From Desulfatibacillum sp. (GTDB lineage: Bacteria > Desulfobacterota > Desulfobacteria > Desulfobacterales > Desulfatibacillaceae), in NCBI GenBank assembly GCA_016342355.1, contig JAEINP010000030.1, positions 1 to 62,401 of the forward strand: 62,401 nucleotides of DNA, given 5' to 3'. Position 1 is the stretch's first letter. Each line of letters opens with the position of its first letter. Of the stretch, positions 2,137 through 11,172 are shown in pieces. The notes beneath the pieces were generated by a model. That model saw nothing but the letters and a program-made list of their open reading frames with translations. It was not told where the DNA came from and ran no database searches. The translations under genes were made by a program, and so were the position numbers.

Positions 2137-3120
2137 ATGAAGCCGCGTCAATCCGAAGAACAATTGACCTCTCGCATCCAAGAGCTTGAAACGGAAATCT
2201 CCCGGTACGAAAACGCCAATAAAGGTTTGACTGCCGTGGAAAAACACTACCGTACCCTGGTGGAAAACACCACGGATGTCTCCTGGAAATCCGGACTGGA
2301 TTTGCGCCTGGAATACTTAAGCCCATCGGTCATGAATTTCATGGGATTTGCCCCGGAAGAGTTGCACTCCCTTCTGCCCAAGGACCTGTTTTCCTCCAAG
2401 TCCATGCAAGTGGTCACTCAAAAATTAGGGGAACTGCTGGAATGCGCCCGATCCTCCATGGGCGCCATCCCAAAGACCGTCAGTTTTGAGGCAGAGGTGC
2501 TTTGCAAGGATGGTTCCACCAAATGGGCGGAGGTTACCGGAGCCGTACTCAGGGACAAGAATGGCAAGGCCCTGGGAATCTATGGAATCTCACGGGATAT
2601 CACCCACAGAAAAACCTCGGAAAAGGCGTTGGAGGAAAAGGATCAGTCCCTTTTCGCACAAACCCAAAAACTTGAGGAAATTAGCGCGACGCTAAGGAAA
2701 GCCTCAATGGTGGCGGGAAATGCAGTCCCAATGCTGCAACAATATTTGCGTATCACCCTGGAAAGTATGGTCTTGCCCTACCTGGATCGGTTGCTTACCA
2801 TGAGCCAGGACGTGGAACAAACCGCGCTTGTGAGTGTTCTCAGGTCCAACATGATAGCGCTTCTTTCCCATGTTTCAGGCCAGATCCAGGACCCCCTGCC
2901 CGAACTGTCCAGCAAGGAACTGGAAGTGGCTTGGTTGGTTCGTAATGGAGAAACCAGCCAGAACATTGCCCAGGCCATGAATATATCCAAGCGGTCGGTG
3001 GACTTTTACCGGGGCAAACTCCGCAAGAAATTCGGATTGGAGGGTCCCGGGGATAGCCTGACAGATCGTCTGGCCTACGCCACCCTGCCGCGCAGGACAA
3101 TGGCAAACCCTTCGGACTAA
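2137..3120 (+). CDS. PAS domain protein with C-terminal LuxR-type HTH (paralogue)
   Basis: A 327-residue protein with the same plan as its upstream neighbour: short coiled coil, PAS domain with PAC motif (GIYGISRDITHRKTSEKALEE), helical linker, and LuxR-type DNA-binding region (SSKELEVAWLVRNGETSQNIA, KRSVDFYRGKLRKK). The two genes are 45 bp apart, share recognisable sequence throughout and look like an old tandem duplication. No receiver, kinase or membrane segment is visible. It is probably a one-component sensor-regulator; the ligand and targets cannot be told from sequence. Confidence 0.85.
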   Translation: MKPRQSEEQLTSRIQELETEISRYENANKGLTAVEKHYRTLVENTTDVSWKSGLDLRLEYLSPSVMNFMGFAPEELHSLLPKDLFSSKSMQVVTQKLGELLECARSSMGAIPKTVSFEAEVLCKDGSTKWAEVTGAVLRDKNGKALGIYGISRDITHRKTSEKALEEKDQSLFAQTQKLEEISATLRKASMVAGNAVPMLQQYLRITLESMVLPYLDRLLTMSQDVEQTALVSVLRSNMIALLSHVSGQIQDPLPELSSKELEVAWLVRNGETSQNIAQAMNISKRSVDFYRGKLRKKFGLEGPGDSLTDRLAYATLPRRTMANPSD

Positions 3121-3244
3121 CATTTTCTTTGGAATTACTGATTGTTCTTCCGCGCACAAACTCCAGCCGGGAGATATTTCCAATTAAATAATCATGGGGC
3201 CAACGCAACAGCCACAATGTCCGCCCTGTTGACAAAACATCCGG

Positions 3245-4828
3245 TCAGGGGGTGTACAAGACCACCAGACACCGGGTTTCCGTATCCGACAAACTTCTCA
3301 ATTTATGGGGGGTTTCCGAATTAAACCGTCGGGATTCCCCGGGTTTGAGCACATGGGCCTTACTGTCCAGGGTCAGTTCCAAAACTCCCTCCAGCACAAA
3401 CACAAATTCCTCGCCTTCGTGCTTATATTCCACGGGCTTGTGATCCGTGCGCGACTCAATGGTGATCATAAAAGCGCGCAAATGCTCGTTTTCTGCGTCC
3501 GGCGTCAGGACTTCGTAGGAATAATTCTGGGTTCTTTTGGCGTAAGCCTTGGCCCGCTGATCCCGAATGGCGGTTTTTTCCTCATCCCGGAGAAAGGTTC
3601 CTGGATCAATGCCTAAAGCCCTGGCCAGTCTCAGCAGAAAACTTACGGACGGGGATACCTCGTCCGACTCCACCGAGGCAATGAATTCAGGGGTCTGTCC
3701 GGTTGCCTGGGCCAGGGCCTCCCGGGTCCACTCATGAGCTTCCCGCAACTTTTTGATGGTGCTGCCAAAACTGGATTCCCTCACGTCCACCGTGGTGCAT
3801 GCCAGGTCATCGGCCAGCTTGCGCATGACGGCCTTTTTGGCCTTCGCCGTAAACACAGGCAAAAAAGCGCGGGCGTCGGCCACCACGCCAATATGGGCGA
3901 TTTCAAACACAGGAGCCTTGGCGTCCCGGTTTATGGCCACAATGAGCCCGGATTCCGCGATGCCCGCGGTATATTGAACAGCACCGGAGGTGGCTGCGGA
4001 AATCAGCAGCTCGGGCCTGACGGTTTTTCCGGTCTGGCCGATAAGCCTTTCTTCCTCCACCCAGTGGGCCAGCACCGGCGGTCTTGTGGCCCCCACCTGT
4101 CCCCCCAGAGTGGCGGCCAGTTCCCTCACCATGCCAAATCCATCTGCACTGCCCATGCCGGCTCCGCCCACCACCACGGTTTCAGCCTCCTCCAGTCTTT
4201 TCGTACCTGGCTCCTCCGGCTCATAGGACAGCAGCCGAAGCCCTTTGGGCAGGGCTAAATCCGAAAAATCATGTGTGATCACCAAGCCGGGGTCGCCCGG
4301 AAAGGCGCAGGGTTTGAATCCATGGGGCGCCACGGTGGCGAATCCCAGGTCCGTGCCCGGGACATAGGTGATCCTGGCCATAATCCGGCCTCCCCAGGAC
4401 GGACAGACGCCCACCAAAAGGCCGTCTTCCATATCCATTTCTACGCAGTCGGCAATCAGCCCGGCGTTTTGCATGCGGGATACCCGGGCGGCCAGTTCCC
4501 GCCCCAGTTGGGTGAGGGGGAAAAAAACAAGCCCGGGTTTTTCTTTGGAAACTGCGGCGCTAATTATTTCCGCCAGGGCATCGGCGCGAGGGGAATCCAG
4601 GCCAGGATGACTGAGCACATGGATGTTATCCGCACCGTTTTGGGAACAGCGGTCCGCTGCTTCCTCCCAATTCAGGCAGGAGTGGGTTTCGTCAGGGACC
4701 ATAACCATGGCCGCCTTGGCGTCCACCTGCCGGGAGAGTTCCCTGGCTTTGCCCAACACATTGAGGGAATAGTCGAAAAATCTGTCGCTTCTCAGGTCCC
4801 CGAATACCCAGATATCTTGATTGCTCAT
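3245..4828 (-). CDS. ETF alpha subunit fused to XRE HTH and cupin domains
   Basis: A 527-residue protein. Residues 1 to about 335 are an electron-transfer flavoprotein alpha subunit with the C-terminal FAD-binding signature (IGQTGKTVRPELLISAATSG, then IVAINRDAKAPVFEIAHIGV). Residues about 356-411 form an XRE-type helix-turn-helix, and about 462-527 a small cupin barrel (HEGEEFVFVLEG). XRE-cupin proteins are normally separate transcription factors. One uninterrupted frame joins the parts, with no internal RBS or frameshift seen. It lies 19 bp after etfB, in an operon with an acyl-CoA dehydrogenase, so the ETF half probably takes electrons from that enzyme. What the C-terminal half does (DNA binding, ligand sensing, or a structural role) is open. 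Confidence 0.88.
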   Translation of the reverse strand: MSNQDIWVFGDLRSDRFFDYSLNVLGKARELSRQVDAKAAMVMVPDETHSCLNWEEAADRCSQNGADNIHVLSHPGLDSPRADALAEIISAAVSKEKPGLVFFPLTQLGRELAARVSRMQNAGLIADCVEMDMEDGLLVGVCPSWGGRIMARITYVPGTDLGFATVAPHGFKPCAFPGDPGLVITHDFSDLALPKGLRLLSYEPEEPGTKRLEEAETVVVGGAGMGSADGFGMVRELAATLGGQVGATRPPVLAHWVEEERLIGQTGKTVRPELLISAATSGAVQYTAGIAESGLIVAINRDAKAPVFEIAHIGVVADARAFLPVFTAKAKKAVMRKLADDLACTTVDVRESSFGSTIKKLREAHEWTREALAQATGQTPEFIASVESDEVSPSVSFLLRLARALGIDPGTFLRDEEKTAIRDQRAKAYAKRTQNYSYEVLTPDAENEHLRAFMITIESRTDHKPVEYKHEGEEFVFVLEGVLELTLDSKAHVLKPGESRRFNSETPHKLRSLSDTETRCLVVLYTP

Positions 4829-8340: not shown

Positions 8341-11172
8341 ATGCGCCGCTATTTATATATATTACTGGCTGTTATCATACCAGCCATACAAGCACATGCA
8401 ATAGAGCCCCAGGCCATGGATTTCATATCCGGCGCCCAGTTGGAAGCCAGGGCTGATGGCGGCCTGTGGCAGCTCATTCTAACCCAGTCGGTTTATGAGG
8501 GCCTGATACGTCAAGATATTGGCGATATTAGGATTTTTGACGGATCCGGGCTTCAGGTTCCCATGAAAATCGTGGACGGCCGCACTGGATTCCACCAGGA
8601 GCCCAAGACCCAGGCCCTGAATTTCTTCCCCTTGATGACCCGGGGGGACGGGTATATTGACATGTCCACCACCCGGTTTCGCATGGACGAGACCGGCGCT
8701 ATCATGGGAGTGGACAGCCAGGCAAAAGATGGGGCCGGGAACATTCTGACATCCTACATAATTGACGCCTCTCGTCTGGATGGGGAACCGGAATCCCTGC
8801 GCGTTAAATGGTCTGATCAGCCAGGAAAATTTGTCACCACTGTGGATGTAAAAGCCAGCCGGGACCTAAACTTCTGGTTCGGCCTTTCCTCCAATTCCAC
8901 CCTGGCCCAAATTCCCTGCGGCCAACTGATGTTTTTTCAAGACATCATCGGCATTCCCAAGGCAATGGCAGGATATTGGCTGATCACTTGGCCTGGGGGA
9001 AAAAAGGGGGTGACCCTGGAGAGCGTGGAGGTGATTTATCCTTCAGAGCAAAATGCGGTCACAACCATATGGTCGCAAGCCACGCCCAGGGGAGCGGGTG
9101 TGGGCGGGGAATATCAGTTCGAAATCCCTGCGGGCTTCCCTGCCAGCCAGGTTAAAATCCACGTTATGTGGCCTGATTTTTGTTCACGGGCCAAGGTGTA
9201 TTCCCGGAGCAGCCAAACCACCAATTGGGAATTCCATGCAGACACGACCCTGTTCAACCTGACAGCCGGGGACAACAACATCCAAAATGGAGTTTTGGAT
9301 GTCCGGCCTGCTAATCATCGATTCTGGAAGGTGCAAATCGACCCGGAATCCACTTCCGGCGCAGGCCCTCTCCCTCCAACTTTTCAAGTGGGGTGGACAC
9401 CCCATTCCATCTATTTTGTGGCCTCAGGACAGGAACCTTTTGTCCTGGCATTCGGTAGCGGGCGGGAGAATCTAAACGCCCCCCCTCCGGACCCTGTTCT
9501 GGAGCCCATAGGATGGGGCAAACCCGGTGTTGTAGCAGCCCCTGCCCGACTGGGCGGTGCGTATATCTTGGGGGGAAACAATGCCCTCTATCCTAACCGC
9601 CCCCTGCCTCCGGACCCCCGAAAAAAAAGGCTGATCCTGATTGCAGGGGGAGTGATCGCACTATGCCTGCTGGCCGTGCTTATCCTGCTGGCGGGTCTCC
9701 TCCTGTCCAAAAGAAAGGCTGCGGCAAAGGCAAGTCAGAAGGCCCTGGAGGAGGATGACTGGACAGAGGCTCAGGCCGCGGCGGAAACAGAAGACCTGGA
9801 TGACACGGGGGAACACGAAGCGGTGGCCGCTGAAGCCAGGGAGATGGCCGATTCCTGGGGACTGCCTGACCAGGAGGATGTGGACAGTATCGTCTCGGAT
9901 TCTGAAAGCATGATAGGGGGAACCTCTCCTGAACCGGCTTCCATGAACGACAAAAAACCTCAACCCAAAGAGCAACCGGCGCTTTTGCAAGAGGATTTGG
10001 AGGATTTGGATTTCCCGATATCCTCTGAGGAGGAAAGCAAACCGGCGCAAGGCGTGGCCGTTCACCTGGGTGAAGATGGCTCCCTGGATCAGAGCCAATT
10101 GGACATGCTTCTGACACAATCCGGCTTCACAGGGGAGCCGTTACGTTCCAAAAAGGAATTCAAGCCCAAGAAATCGTCCCTGGAGTCCTCTGTTGATCCT
10201 AATGAAGGCGCCTTGAATCAGGATGACCTGGACGCCCTTCTGTCCACCCAGGCAGGCGTGAAGCCCTCCACTGCTCCCAAGGCCGGACTTGATGAAAGCA
10301 ACGCTTTGAACCAGGACGACCTGGATGCACTCCTAACAACCCAGGTCAACATGAGTGCGCCCGATCCTGTGCCCGTCCCCCAAGTCAATGATGATGGAAC
10401 CCTGGATCAGGCAGCCCTGGACGCCTTGCTGGCCAATCAGTCTTTTAAAGAGCCCCATCTGCCCAGAGAACCGAAAAAAAAGCCTGACGCCCAATATAAA
10501 GCCAATGAGGACGGGACCCTGAACCAGGCAGCTCTCAACGCTATGCTGCACAATGCCGGCTACAATATCACGGTGCCCACGGCCGAGCCCGTTCAAACAG
10601 AAGGGCTTTCCTTTGAGGGAGCCCTGGACCAAAGCCAGTTGGACCAGATTGTGGGCGAATCCGATGGGCCTGTTCTTGAAAAGGAAACCGAACAGGAGCC
10701 GCCGCCTGTCATTAAACAATTCTCCCAGGAAGAACTGGACGACCTCTTTGACGGAGCAGGCCGCCTGGACGACTGGGCGCCTCCCCCCAAAGAACCCGAA
10801 CCTGAACTAGTGCCAGTCCTTCCTGTTCCTGAAGCCTTGCAAACAGAGGGGCAGCTCAGCCAGGCCGACCTGGACGCGTTTTTTGATACCCCGGCGGCAG
10901 CTCCTCCGGCCCCAAAAATGGAAGACAACGCAGCCATGAACCAGGACGACCTGGACGCCCTTTTTGACGCTCCGCCCAAGCCGGAAGTAAAAGCGCAACC
11001 CGTAGACAACGCAGCCATGAACCAGGACGACCTGGACGCCCTTTTTGACGCTCCGCCCAAGCCGGAGACATCCCAGGCGCCTGCACCGCCAGCCAAGGCC
11101 CGACCCACCGCGCGGGATAAAGGCGTTGCGCCGGTTTTTCAGGCAGCGGGCAAGAAAAAAAAATCACCATGA
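8341..11172 (+). CDS. Membrane protein: DUF3999-like ectodomain plus cytoplasmic tail with ten FliM-like motifs
   Basis: A 943-residue protein. A signal peptide (MRRYLYILLAVIIPAIQAHA) is followed by an extracytoplasmic region of about 400 residues resembling DUF3999, one membrane segment (about residues 430-455), and an acidic, Pro-rich cytoplasmic tail of roughly 490 residues. The tail carries ten copies of a motif close to x-[ND]-Q-x-x-L-D-A-L-[LF], starting at nucleotides 10081, 10210, 10303, 10399, 10516, 10621, 10720, 10855, 10933 and 11014. This closely resembles the N-terminal CheY-binding peptide of FliM (SQAEIDALL). The last two copies lie in a recent DNA duplication. The ATG at 8341 follows AGGA by 6 bp; frames from 8299 or 8323 would spoil the signal peptide. 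Function unknown; a docking scaffold is a guess. Confidence 0.75.
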   Translation: MRRYLYILLAVIIPAIQAHAIEPQAMDFISGAQLEARADGGLWQLILTQSVYEGLIRQDIGDIRIFDGSGLQVPMKIVDGRTGFHQEPKTQALNFFPLMTRGDGYIDMSTTRFRMDETGAIMGVDSQAKDGAGNILTSYIIDASRLDGEPESLRVKWSDQPGKFVTTVDVKASRDLNFWFGLSSNSTLAQIPCGQLMFFQDIIGIPKAMAGYWLITWPGGKKGVTLESVEVIYPSEQNAVTTIWSQATPRGAGVGGEYQFEIPAGFPASQVKIHVMWPDFCSRAKVYSRSSQTTNWEFHADTTLFNLTAGDNNIQNGVLDVRPANHRFWKVQIDPESTSGAGPLPPTFQVGWTPHSIYFVASGQEPFVLAFGSGRENLNAPPPDPVLEPIGWGKPGVVAAPARLGGAYILGGNNALYPNRPLPPDPRKKRLILIAGGVIALCLLAVLILLAGLLLSKRKAAAKASQKALEEDDWTEAQAAAETEDLDDTGEHEAVAAEAREMADSWGLPDQEDVDSIVSDSESMIGGTSPEPASMNDKKPQPKEQPALLQEDLEDLDFPISSEEESKPAQGVAVHLGEDGSLDQSQLDMLLTQSGFTGEPLRSKKEFKPKKSSLESSVDPNEGALNQDDLDALLSTQAGVKPSTAPKAGLDESNALNQDDLDALLTTQVNMSAPDPVPVPQVNDDGTLDQAALDALLANQSFKEPHLPREPKKKPDAQYKANEDGTLNQAALNAMLHNAGYNITVPTAEPVQTEGLSFEGALDQSQLDQIVGESDGPVLEKETEQEPPPVIKQFSQEELDDLFDGAGRLDDWAPPPKEPEPELVPVLPVPEALQTEGQLSQADLDAFFDTPAAAPPAPKMEDNAAMNQDDLDALFDAPPKPEVKAQPVDNAAMNQDDLDALFDAPPKPETSQAPAPPAKARPTARDKGVAPVFQAAGKKKKSP
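10924..11066 (+). repeat. Tandem 81-bp repeat, two copies with 62 identical bases
   Basis: Bases 10924-10985 and 11005-11066 are identical and offset by 81 bp (27 codons), encoding the last two FliM-like motifs and the following DAPPKPE. Perfect identity contrasts with the other eight, divergent motif copies, so this is a recent in-frame duplication and a place where repeat number may vary between strains. Confidence 0.9.

Follow-up and report, generated by a model that had tools for sequence, protein, structure and literature searches.

A DUF3999 membrane protein of Desulfatibacillum with a C-terminal array of FliM-like, putatively CheY-docking motifs

The docking of CheY onto FliM is among the best-studied contacts in bacterial signalling and is generally described as involving one motif per subunit. 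The LSQXEIDALL segment of FliM binds phosphorylated CheY (PMC6700473), one face of CheY is common to FliM and CheZ (PMC3774744), the FliM contact on CheY is the alpha4-beta5-alpha5 surface, and residues 34-45 of the FliM N-terminus touch FliN (both PMC11528121). For activated CheY a Kd of 27 uM for a FliM-type peptide is quoted, along with two-step binding (PMC9126983). As for FliL, an interaction with the MotAB stator (PMC8036289) and ring formation in the motor of Campylobacter (PMC11870540) have been reported. A literature search conducted mainly outside subscription journals, and extending to the accessible parts of the texts, returned no description of arrays of CheY-docking motifs, and in a search mostly so limited we found no paper on DUF3999.

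Here we analyse a gene of Desulfatibacillum sp. whose product carries such motifs in many copies, and argue that its membrane-tethered tail is probably a multivalent array on which the chemotaxis response regulator CheY docks, presumably in the phosphorylated form.

A DUF3999 protein with a repeat-bearing tail

The window, that is, the whole stretch of 62,401 nucleotides under analysis, contains a gene with the following main features:

8341..11172, + strand: whole gene, DUF3999 protein with a tail of CheY-docking-like motifs, 943 aa
8341..8400, + strand: N-terminal hydrophobic segment, signal-peptide-like (sequence read by eye)
8416..9681, + strand: DUF3999 domain (PF13163), residues 26-447, presumably periplasmic (Pfam E 7.9e-107)
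9628..9708, + strand: single transmembrane helix, residues ~430-456 (hydrophobic stretch by eye; helix in both AlphaFold models)
9709..11169, + strand: acidic proline-rich tail, 487 aa, presumably cytosolic (mostly low-confidence in the model)

The reading frame starts with ATG at 8341, and an alternative start at a TTG (8299) would lengthen the protein by 14 residues. The domain had been labelled "DUF3999-like" in an earlier note on this DNA; it is indeed present, and the label understates a full Pfam match that covers positions 1-420 of the 424 in the profile at 358.5 bits against a cut-off of 30. The only further match in a Pfam scan at E 1 was a sub-threshold DUF7261, with no FliM middle domain (PF02154), FliMN_C, CheZ phosphatase domain (PF04344), MCP signalling domain or FliL domain (PF03748) found in that scan. 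A FimV-like organisation (LysM, TPR) was dropped because neither domain was matched, and a search of solved structures with the whole protein as query gave no match. The seven ORFs scanned around the gene encode two ETF proteins, an acyl-CoA dehydrogenase, an alpha/beta hydrolase, RecJ, a metallo-hydrolase and HU, in agreement with the earlier statement that no flagellar gene lies close by; the remainder of the window was covered by a by-eye judgement of the ORFs of at least 330 aa downstream of 16000.

The motifs lie in the tail as listed below, motif 1 being a degenerate copy admitted by a relaxed pattern and motifs 2 to 11 being identified by the regular expression Q..L[DN].[LMIF][LFV]; each coincides with a helix in the AlphaFold model.

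9871..9894, + strand: motif 1, QEDVDSIV, degenerate, outside the ten counted earlier
10090..10113, + strand: motif 2, QSQLDMLL
10219..10242, + strand: motif 3, QDDLDALL
10312..10335, + strand: motif 4, QDDLDALL
10408..10431, + strand: motif 5, QAALDALL
10525..10548, + strand: motif 6, QAALNAML
10630..10653, + strand: motif 7, QSQLDQIV
10726..10749, + strand: motif 8, QEELDDLF
10861..10884, + strand: motif 9, QADLDAFF
10942..10965, + strand: motif 10, QDDLDALF
11023..11046, + strand: motif 11, QDDLDALF, within a 63-nt duplicate of the motif-10 unit

The earlier count of ten copies behind one membrane helix is borne out by the regular expression, which matches ten times against a mean of 0.012 and a maximum of 2 in 20,000 shuffles of the tail. 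Once V or I is permitted at position +3, the search also picks up the eleventh, degenerate copy at Q511 (DQEDVDSIV), and eleven copies compare with a mean of 0.02 and a maximum of 2 in 100,000 shuffles. Motifs resembling the FliM segment LSQXEIDALL are present in 11 copies. They lie, however, in a tail at the C-terminal end, and in 9 of the 11 the serine that FliM has at motif position -1 is replaced by N or D. Successive motif glutamines are 27-73 residues apart. With 99 acidic residues against 40 basic ones the tail has a pI of 4.1; it contains 10.7% Pro and is enriched in A, D, P, L and E.

Could such a tail be a functionless expansion, an acidic low-complexity segment whose repeats were multiplied by duplication? 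The composition fits this explanation, as does the identity of the last two repeat units over 63 nt, from which it follows that one of these copies is recent. The distribution among relatives also fits. We compared 35 DUF3999 frames from 34 loci (two genes were fetched twice), and the array-bearing version is confined among them to two genomes of one genus. Apart from the orthologue described below, the frames end 1-19 residues past the transmembrane helix and carry no array; a usable tail length is missing for two of the 35, namely L038, which stops shortly past a transmembrane helix that fell below the threshold, and L058, whose frame is split by stops. A DUF3999 paralogue is present in the same genome as the window gene. 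One frame, L056, contains a single motif match.

The remaining evidence makes functionless expansion very improbable. The other repeats have diverged at the DNA level, and the gene has an orthologue with the same neighbours in D. alkenivorans DSM 16219, in which the motif cores are 89% identical and the motif 8-mers 83%, whereas the linkers between them diverge with indels and retain about 54% identity. None of 20,000 random placements of the motifs matched the observed motif conservation. Relative to this orthologue, pN/pS is 0.17 in the motifs, 0.42 in the linkers and 0.28 in DUF3999, a contrast that is only rough because dS is near saturation. Low-complexity drift, named beforehand in the earlier note as part of what would refute a docking function, is contradicted by the shuffles, by the conservation of cores in the orthologue and by the random placements, and we reject it as an account of the repeats.

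Structure prediction from two sequences (mean pLDDT 50.9 for the tail, with low confidence outside the helices) places 12 helices past the transmembrane helix; 11 of these are the motifs, each beginning exactly at the motif glutamine. The model of the DUF3999 part, likewise from two sequences, is too poor for a fold search (mean pLDDT 38.5).

FliM, CheZ and CheY of the same genome

The true FliM of this genome, identified by the Pfam FliM family, is encoded on a different contig from the window gene and begins MGDILSQDEVDSLLQG, with the N-terminal motif SQDEVDSLL. The true CheZ is also encoded elsewhere (PF04344, E 2.2e-42); its C-terminus, HSQDEVDALLKEFGF, contains SQDEVDALL. A profile made from the tail repeats only (A2) matches the N-termini of proteins assigned to FliM by coordinates and frame length in four other genomes (G372, G322, G262, G304); at E 10 the tail profile missed both the FliM and the CheZ of the genome itself.

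The same genome encodes a CheY that is 60% identical to that of E. coli over 121 aa, and its gene adjoins CheX, CheR, CheA, CheB and CheD. It keeps D12, D13, D57, T87, A90, K92, Y106, V108, K109, F111, T112 and K119 and differs at positions 95, 103 and 115, so that the docking face is largely kept.

The array might instead dock one or several other receivers, such as the other CheY-like protein encoded in the che cluster or a member of another two-component pathway, and act by the same mechanism but outside flagellar control. Another partner is conceivable because the genome contains at least 150 receiver matches (150 of the 182 candidates scored); the window gene stands outside any flagellar or che neighbourhood, and the same che cluster encodes a further CheY-like receiver, L193, which shares 38% identity with the E. 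coli protein. We nonetheless consider this unlikely, since the tail motif matches that of FliM and CheZ in the same genome and related arrays are located in flagellar clusters. The docking face points the same way. Of its ten positions 90, 92, 95, 103, 106, 108, 111, 112, 115 and 119, most are kept in the 60% CheY, whereas 8 differ in L193 and 7 in L190, the next two receivers by score among the 23 small receiver frames set against the E. coli protein. The earlier note had proposed a docking array linked either to chemotaxis or to some other two-component pathway. Its first part has gained from the conserved motif cores, the predicted helices, the motifs of the genome's own FliM and CheZ, the canonical CheY and the FliL-like arrays described below; as for the second, the evidence favours the chemotaxis CheY.

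How could docking on CheY operate? Each motif would be a short linear peptide folding into about 2.5 helical turns from the glutamine that follows an N-cap S, N or D, and would seat on the alpha4-beta5-alpha5 face of CheY, where the N-terminus of FliM and the C-terminus of CheZ also bind. We propose that eleven copies on one flexible chain provide avidity, because single FliM-type peptides bind weakly (the Kd quoted above), and thereby a high local concentration of phosphorylated CheY at the inner membrane. The DUF3999 carrier may then serve as an envelope-anchored reservoir of phosphorylated CheY or as a competitor to FliM and CheZ, and the periplasmic domain, if it is a sensor, perhaps regulates that reservoir. 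Docking on CheY would provide one branch of DUF3999, a family of unknown function, with a function that can be tested.

Motif arrays in the class

A motif search across many genomes had been suggested in the earlier note, and in such a search arrays recur on unrelated carriers, mostly FliL-like proteins in flagellar clusters, which again argues against repeat expansion without function. Of the FliM-bearing genomes in the class, 218 were sampled, and 70 of them have at least four motif matches. FliM is present in 70 of the 76 genomes with at least four matches versus 148 of the 313 others (Fisher p 4.8e-14, with relatedness ignored). The remaining 148 of the 218 FliM-bearing genomes fall below four matches, and the array is therefore dispensable for flagellates. 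Most of the array proteins examined combine a presumably cytosolic array, one transmembrane helix and a FliL-like domain in a gene directly after fliA; this gene is immediately 3' of fliA in all seven flagellar neighbourhoods fetched at length, two of them Pfam-checked, and its position is fixed in the flagellar clusters read here. Arrays occur, too, on a four-motif FliN, on another membrane protein and on a 92-aa ORF.

The post-fliA FliL-like gene has no motif in either Desulfatibacillum genome. We discarded a swap, with the array lost from FliL and gained on DUF3999: these motif-free genes are no evidence for it because 148 of 218 FliM-bearing genomes likewise have fewer than four matches. 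A CheZ search in 12 genomes gave four matches at E 0.001, three exceeding the CheZ cut-off, namely those of the two Desulfatibacillum genomes and of a FliL-array genome (G028). An anticorrelation between arrays and CheZ (8 of 10 FliL-array genomes had no CheZ match) was set aside, the sample of 12 genomes being too small to use.

The carriers bear on a further alternative, in which the motif binds a partner other than a receiver (the C ring, the export apparatus or a CheX/CheC-type phosphatase) and the array serves assembly or dephosphorylation as a scaffold. The FliL-like carriers and the four-motif FliN are flagellar-type components, and the contact of FliM with FliN noted above is of the kind that this alternative envisages. 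That contact, however, presumably lies downstream of the LSQXEIDALL segment, and CheZ, a CheY phosphatase outside the C ring, ends in the same motif. We regard a non-receiver partner as distinctly improbable.

With CheY as the partner, the arrays suggest from their sequences a possible means of storing or steering it. On FliL-like carriers of related bacteria the array would place phosphorylated CheY around the flagellar base. If so, the FliL-paralogue arrays constitute a large CheY docking pool near the motor and outside the C ring, and the sensitivity of the switch would have to be modelled differently. That an array also sits on DUF3999 suggests a docking module able to move from one carrier to another. 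We advance only tentatively the broader idea of a class-wide device, in which between 2 and 12 CheY-docking helices are combined into modular arrays at the inner membrane. Such arrays might concentrate phosphorylated CheY, perhaps in a multivalent cluster, and thereby determine the gain of motor switching and its dwell time. The carrier would mostly be a FliL paralogue at the motor, but also DUF3999, FliN, another membrane protein or a free small peptide, and in Desulfatibacillum envelope state would be wired into chemotaxis.

Comparison with known systems

The window protein resembles other DUF3999 proteins in its full-length domain match and differs from them in its long array tail. DUF3999 (PF13163) proteins often adjoin a multi-spanning DUF2339-like protein; the window gene has no such neighbour. 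With the array-bearing FliL-like proteins it shares a multi-copy, presumably cytosolic array (SQDDIDxLL motifs in those proteins) and a single transmembrane helix. Theirs is an N-terminal array joined to a FliL-like periplasmic domain, whereas the window protein has no FliL match, and a local FliL-array profile matched none of the window ORFs of at least 80 aa at E 10. The CheZ of this organism ends SQDEVDALLKEFGF, with the same core as the tail motifs, but CheZ is a phosphatase with one copy at its extreme C-terminus, and the window protein has no CheZ domain. FliM, finally, is a C-ring protein with one N-terminal copy, in contrast to the eleven C-terminal copies of a membrane protein devoid of a FliM domain; the two resemble each other in consensus, apart from position -1 in most copies, carried as a short helix in an otherwise unstructured, presumably cytosolic end.

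Architecture and conservation of the motif-bearing tail

The motif tail belongs to a protein of the following layout.

8341-11172, + strand: gene for the DUF3999 and motif-tail protein, 943 aa, from the ATG at 8341 to the stop at 11172 (ORF translation)
N-terminal hydrophobic stretch: putative signal peptide, read from sequence
Residues 26-447: DUF3999 domain (Pfam, E 7.9e-107)
About residues 430-456: single TM helix
487 residues C-terminal to the TM helix: tail

The domain that the earlier note had called DUF3999-like is a Pfam DUF3999 match, and the ten motif copies that it had placed in a tail after one membrane helix are confirmed by a pattern search with Q-x-x-L-[DN]-x-[LMIF]-[LFV], to which we add an eleventh, QEDVDSIV at residue 511. 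In 100,000 shuffles of the tail the count averages 0.02 and never exceeds two, against the 11 observed. The residue preceding the Q is S, N or D in all 11 motifs, and these are frequent helix N-caps. AlphaFold, given two sequences as input, modelled the tail with a mean pLDDT of 50.9 (270 of 516 residues below 50) and predicted twelve helices beyond the TM helix, 11 of which begin precisely at a motif Q, one for each motif.

Conservation could be assessed in two genomes of the genus, that of the window and one neighbour, whose gene has a translation identical to that of Desulfatibacillum alkenivorans DSM 16219 (L003 and L029 ORFs); the window thus most likely comes from a Desulfatibacillum. 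The D. alkenivorans orthologue is flanked by the same genes and also carries the motif tail. In the public sequence a run of N lies within this tail, and the frame stops matching beyond it; the run marks either masked sequence or a gap where repeats were assembled. The comparison covers the portion ahead of the run. There, motif cores (Q, +3, +4, +6 and +7, counted from Q) are 89% identical and whole 8-mers 83%, with linkers at about 54%, and in 20,000 trials that placed eleven 8-mers at random, neither the core nor the 8-mer identity of the real motifs was ever reached. The pN/pS ratios, which are rough since dS is near saturation, are 0.17 for motifs, 0.42 for linkers and 0.28 for DUF3999.

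The same two loci share a further peculiarity. A single 527-aa ORF (window 3245-4828, - strand) joins an ETF alpha subunit to a helix-turn-helix and a cupin (PF01012, PF00766, HTH_3, Cupin_2), and an ORF of equal length and similar sequence occupies 2899-4482 of the D. alkenivorans locus. The fusion is possibly a flavoprotein-linked transcription regulator.

Among DUF3999 proteins the tail is rare. The domain is present in 47 of 389 genomes sampled from the class, and loci from 30 of these yielded 35 frames (34 loci, two genes twice), among which an array, that is, a run of several CheY-docking-like motifs in one protein, occurs only in the window gene and its orthologue; one further frame (L056) has a single motif match. 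In the remaining 17 genomes, known by frame lengths, all frames are up to 702 aa, and a tail-repeat scan gave zero matches on their DUF3999 contigs. The DUF3999 paralogue encoded in the same genome as the window gene (L002) stops six residues past its TM helix and adjoins a multi-spanning ORF, which we take to be DUF2339-like.

Motif arrays in FliL-like and other proteins

The search for multi-copy FliM-like motifs across genomes that the earlier note had proposed reveals arrays well beyond this gene. At E 10, a first profile of the tail repeats (A1), run on the genome that contains the window, recovered the ten tail copies together with a single stray match and missed both FliM and CheZ; the tail profile is therefore narrow. 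Built from 20 tail repeats, profile A2 matched 52 of the 389 class genomes at E 0.05, the match being the N-terminus of a Pfam-found FliM frame in at least four (G372, G322, G262 and G304, by coordinates). Of 28 loci read from the profile search, 23 have an ORF of four or more motifs, one has three and four have one; the commonest motif letters are [ILV]-S-Q-D-D-I-D-x-L-L. A richer profile containing no FliM sequence (A3) matched 142 of the 389 genomes at E 0.01, with four or more matches in 76. FliM, present in 218 class genomes, occurs in 70 of these 76 (Fisher p 4.8e-14, kinship among genomes ignored) and in 38 of the 49 single-match genomes; the six FliM-less genomes (G223, G271, G345, G359, G361, G385) come from assemblies split into 330 to 1180 contigs. 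FliM genomes do not all carry the array: in 148 of the 218 the number of matches stays below four. In the phylum sample, searched at a stricter E of 0.001, 13 of 375 genomes match: one locus (L139) encodes a class array protein with nine motifs and another (L147) a small ORF, and the other 11 contain no ORF over 60 aa with more than one motif. We found no description of such arrays in the literature searched.

What proteins carry the arrays? An ORF with 2-12 motifs is present in 52 of 57 loci read (at least 43 distinct genes by first motif region, some fetched twice), and in 50 of the 52 one predicted TM helix follows the array, the exceptions being a FliN (L062) and a protein whose helix falls below threshold (L071). 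The C-terminal domain is FliL-like: PF03748 scores above cut-off in L064 (E 2.4e-6) and below it in L065, L071, L075 and L089; at E 1, L066 and L069 show no match. A local profile of 26 such domains recovers all eight neighbourhood proteins, six of which were used in building it; the independent L096 and L100 score 2.8e-20 and 2.6e-18, and the canonical FliL of Desulfatibacillum 5.5e-7. In all seven long flagellar neighbourhoods (L091, L093-L097, L100; genes named by eye, with L091 and L095 ORFs checked against Pfam), fliA directly precedes the array-FliL-like gene, which has 5-11 motifs. Hook and rod genes lie downstream in six; within the stretch of L097 none is seen, and a FliK-like ORF comes before others. 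The short contigs L090 and L092 are consistent as far as they extend.

Desulfatibacillum itself has a FliL-like gene after fliA in its flagellar cluster, which the local profile detects at E 7.9e-13 and 4.9e-12. Its product gives a weak NCBIfam FliL match, no Pfam match and no docking-like motif. Where the array would be, it carries another acidic N-terminal repeat of the EPWGG / WGGGND type (L103 2426-3196, L104 3401-4228). By tail-profile scans, the array in this genus is found only on DUF3999.

Three carriers depart from the FliL-like pattern. A FliN with four FliM-like motifs (L062/L098, genome G269; Pfam and NCBIfam) has cell-shape (rod-shape) genes as neighbours by eye, not a flagellar cluster. 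The second, a membrane protein (L063/L099), has at least three motifs, a coiled coil by eye, and no Pfam family above cut-off. A 92-aa ORF (L147/L206, 5553-5828), found in a different family of the phylum, consists of three CheY-docking-like motifs and little else, and is possibly a soluble CheY trap.

A CheY-docking interpretation

The window's genome has the same motif in two established ligands of CheY: its FliM (Pfam) begins with MGDILSQDEVDSLLQG, and its CheZ (PF04344, E 2.2e-42) ends in HSQDEVDALLKEFGF, likewise in a second genome. A long CheZ of 526 aa, with about 300 residues N-terminal to the CheZ domain, was also seen (L204, 7701-9278, - strand). The best of 23 small receiver frames compared is a stand-alone receiver with 60% identity to E. 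coli CheY across 121 residues.

C24:38486 (contig of the window's genome): this CheY, with neighbours CheX, CheR, CheA, CheB, a second CheY-like receiver and CheD

It retains D12, D13, D57, T87, A90, K92, Y106, V108, K109, F111, T112 and K119, and differs at positions 95, 103 and 115.

We infer, with good support, that each motif is most likely a CheY docking helix. The tail would then be tethered to the inner membrane and bind CheY~P multivalently. In the FliL-like carriers the arrays would load the surroundings of the motor with CheY~P; on DUF3999 the array would serve at the envelope as a CheY~P buffer or as a competitor of FliM and CheZ. That its physiological role is that of a buffer or reservoir is our guess, held with slightly less than even confidence.

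Known systems offer points of comparison. The conserved LSQXEIDALL of FliM-N binds CheY-P and is disordered before binding (PMC6700473), and one CheY face serves both FliM and CheZ (PMC3774744). In a two-step scheme, the FliM N-terminus raises local CheY-P; the peptide is quoted with a Kd of 27 uM and a longer T. maritima FliM fragment with one of 39 nM (PMC9126983).
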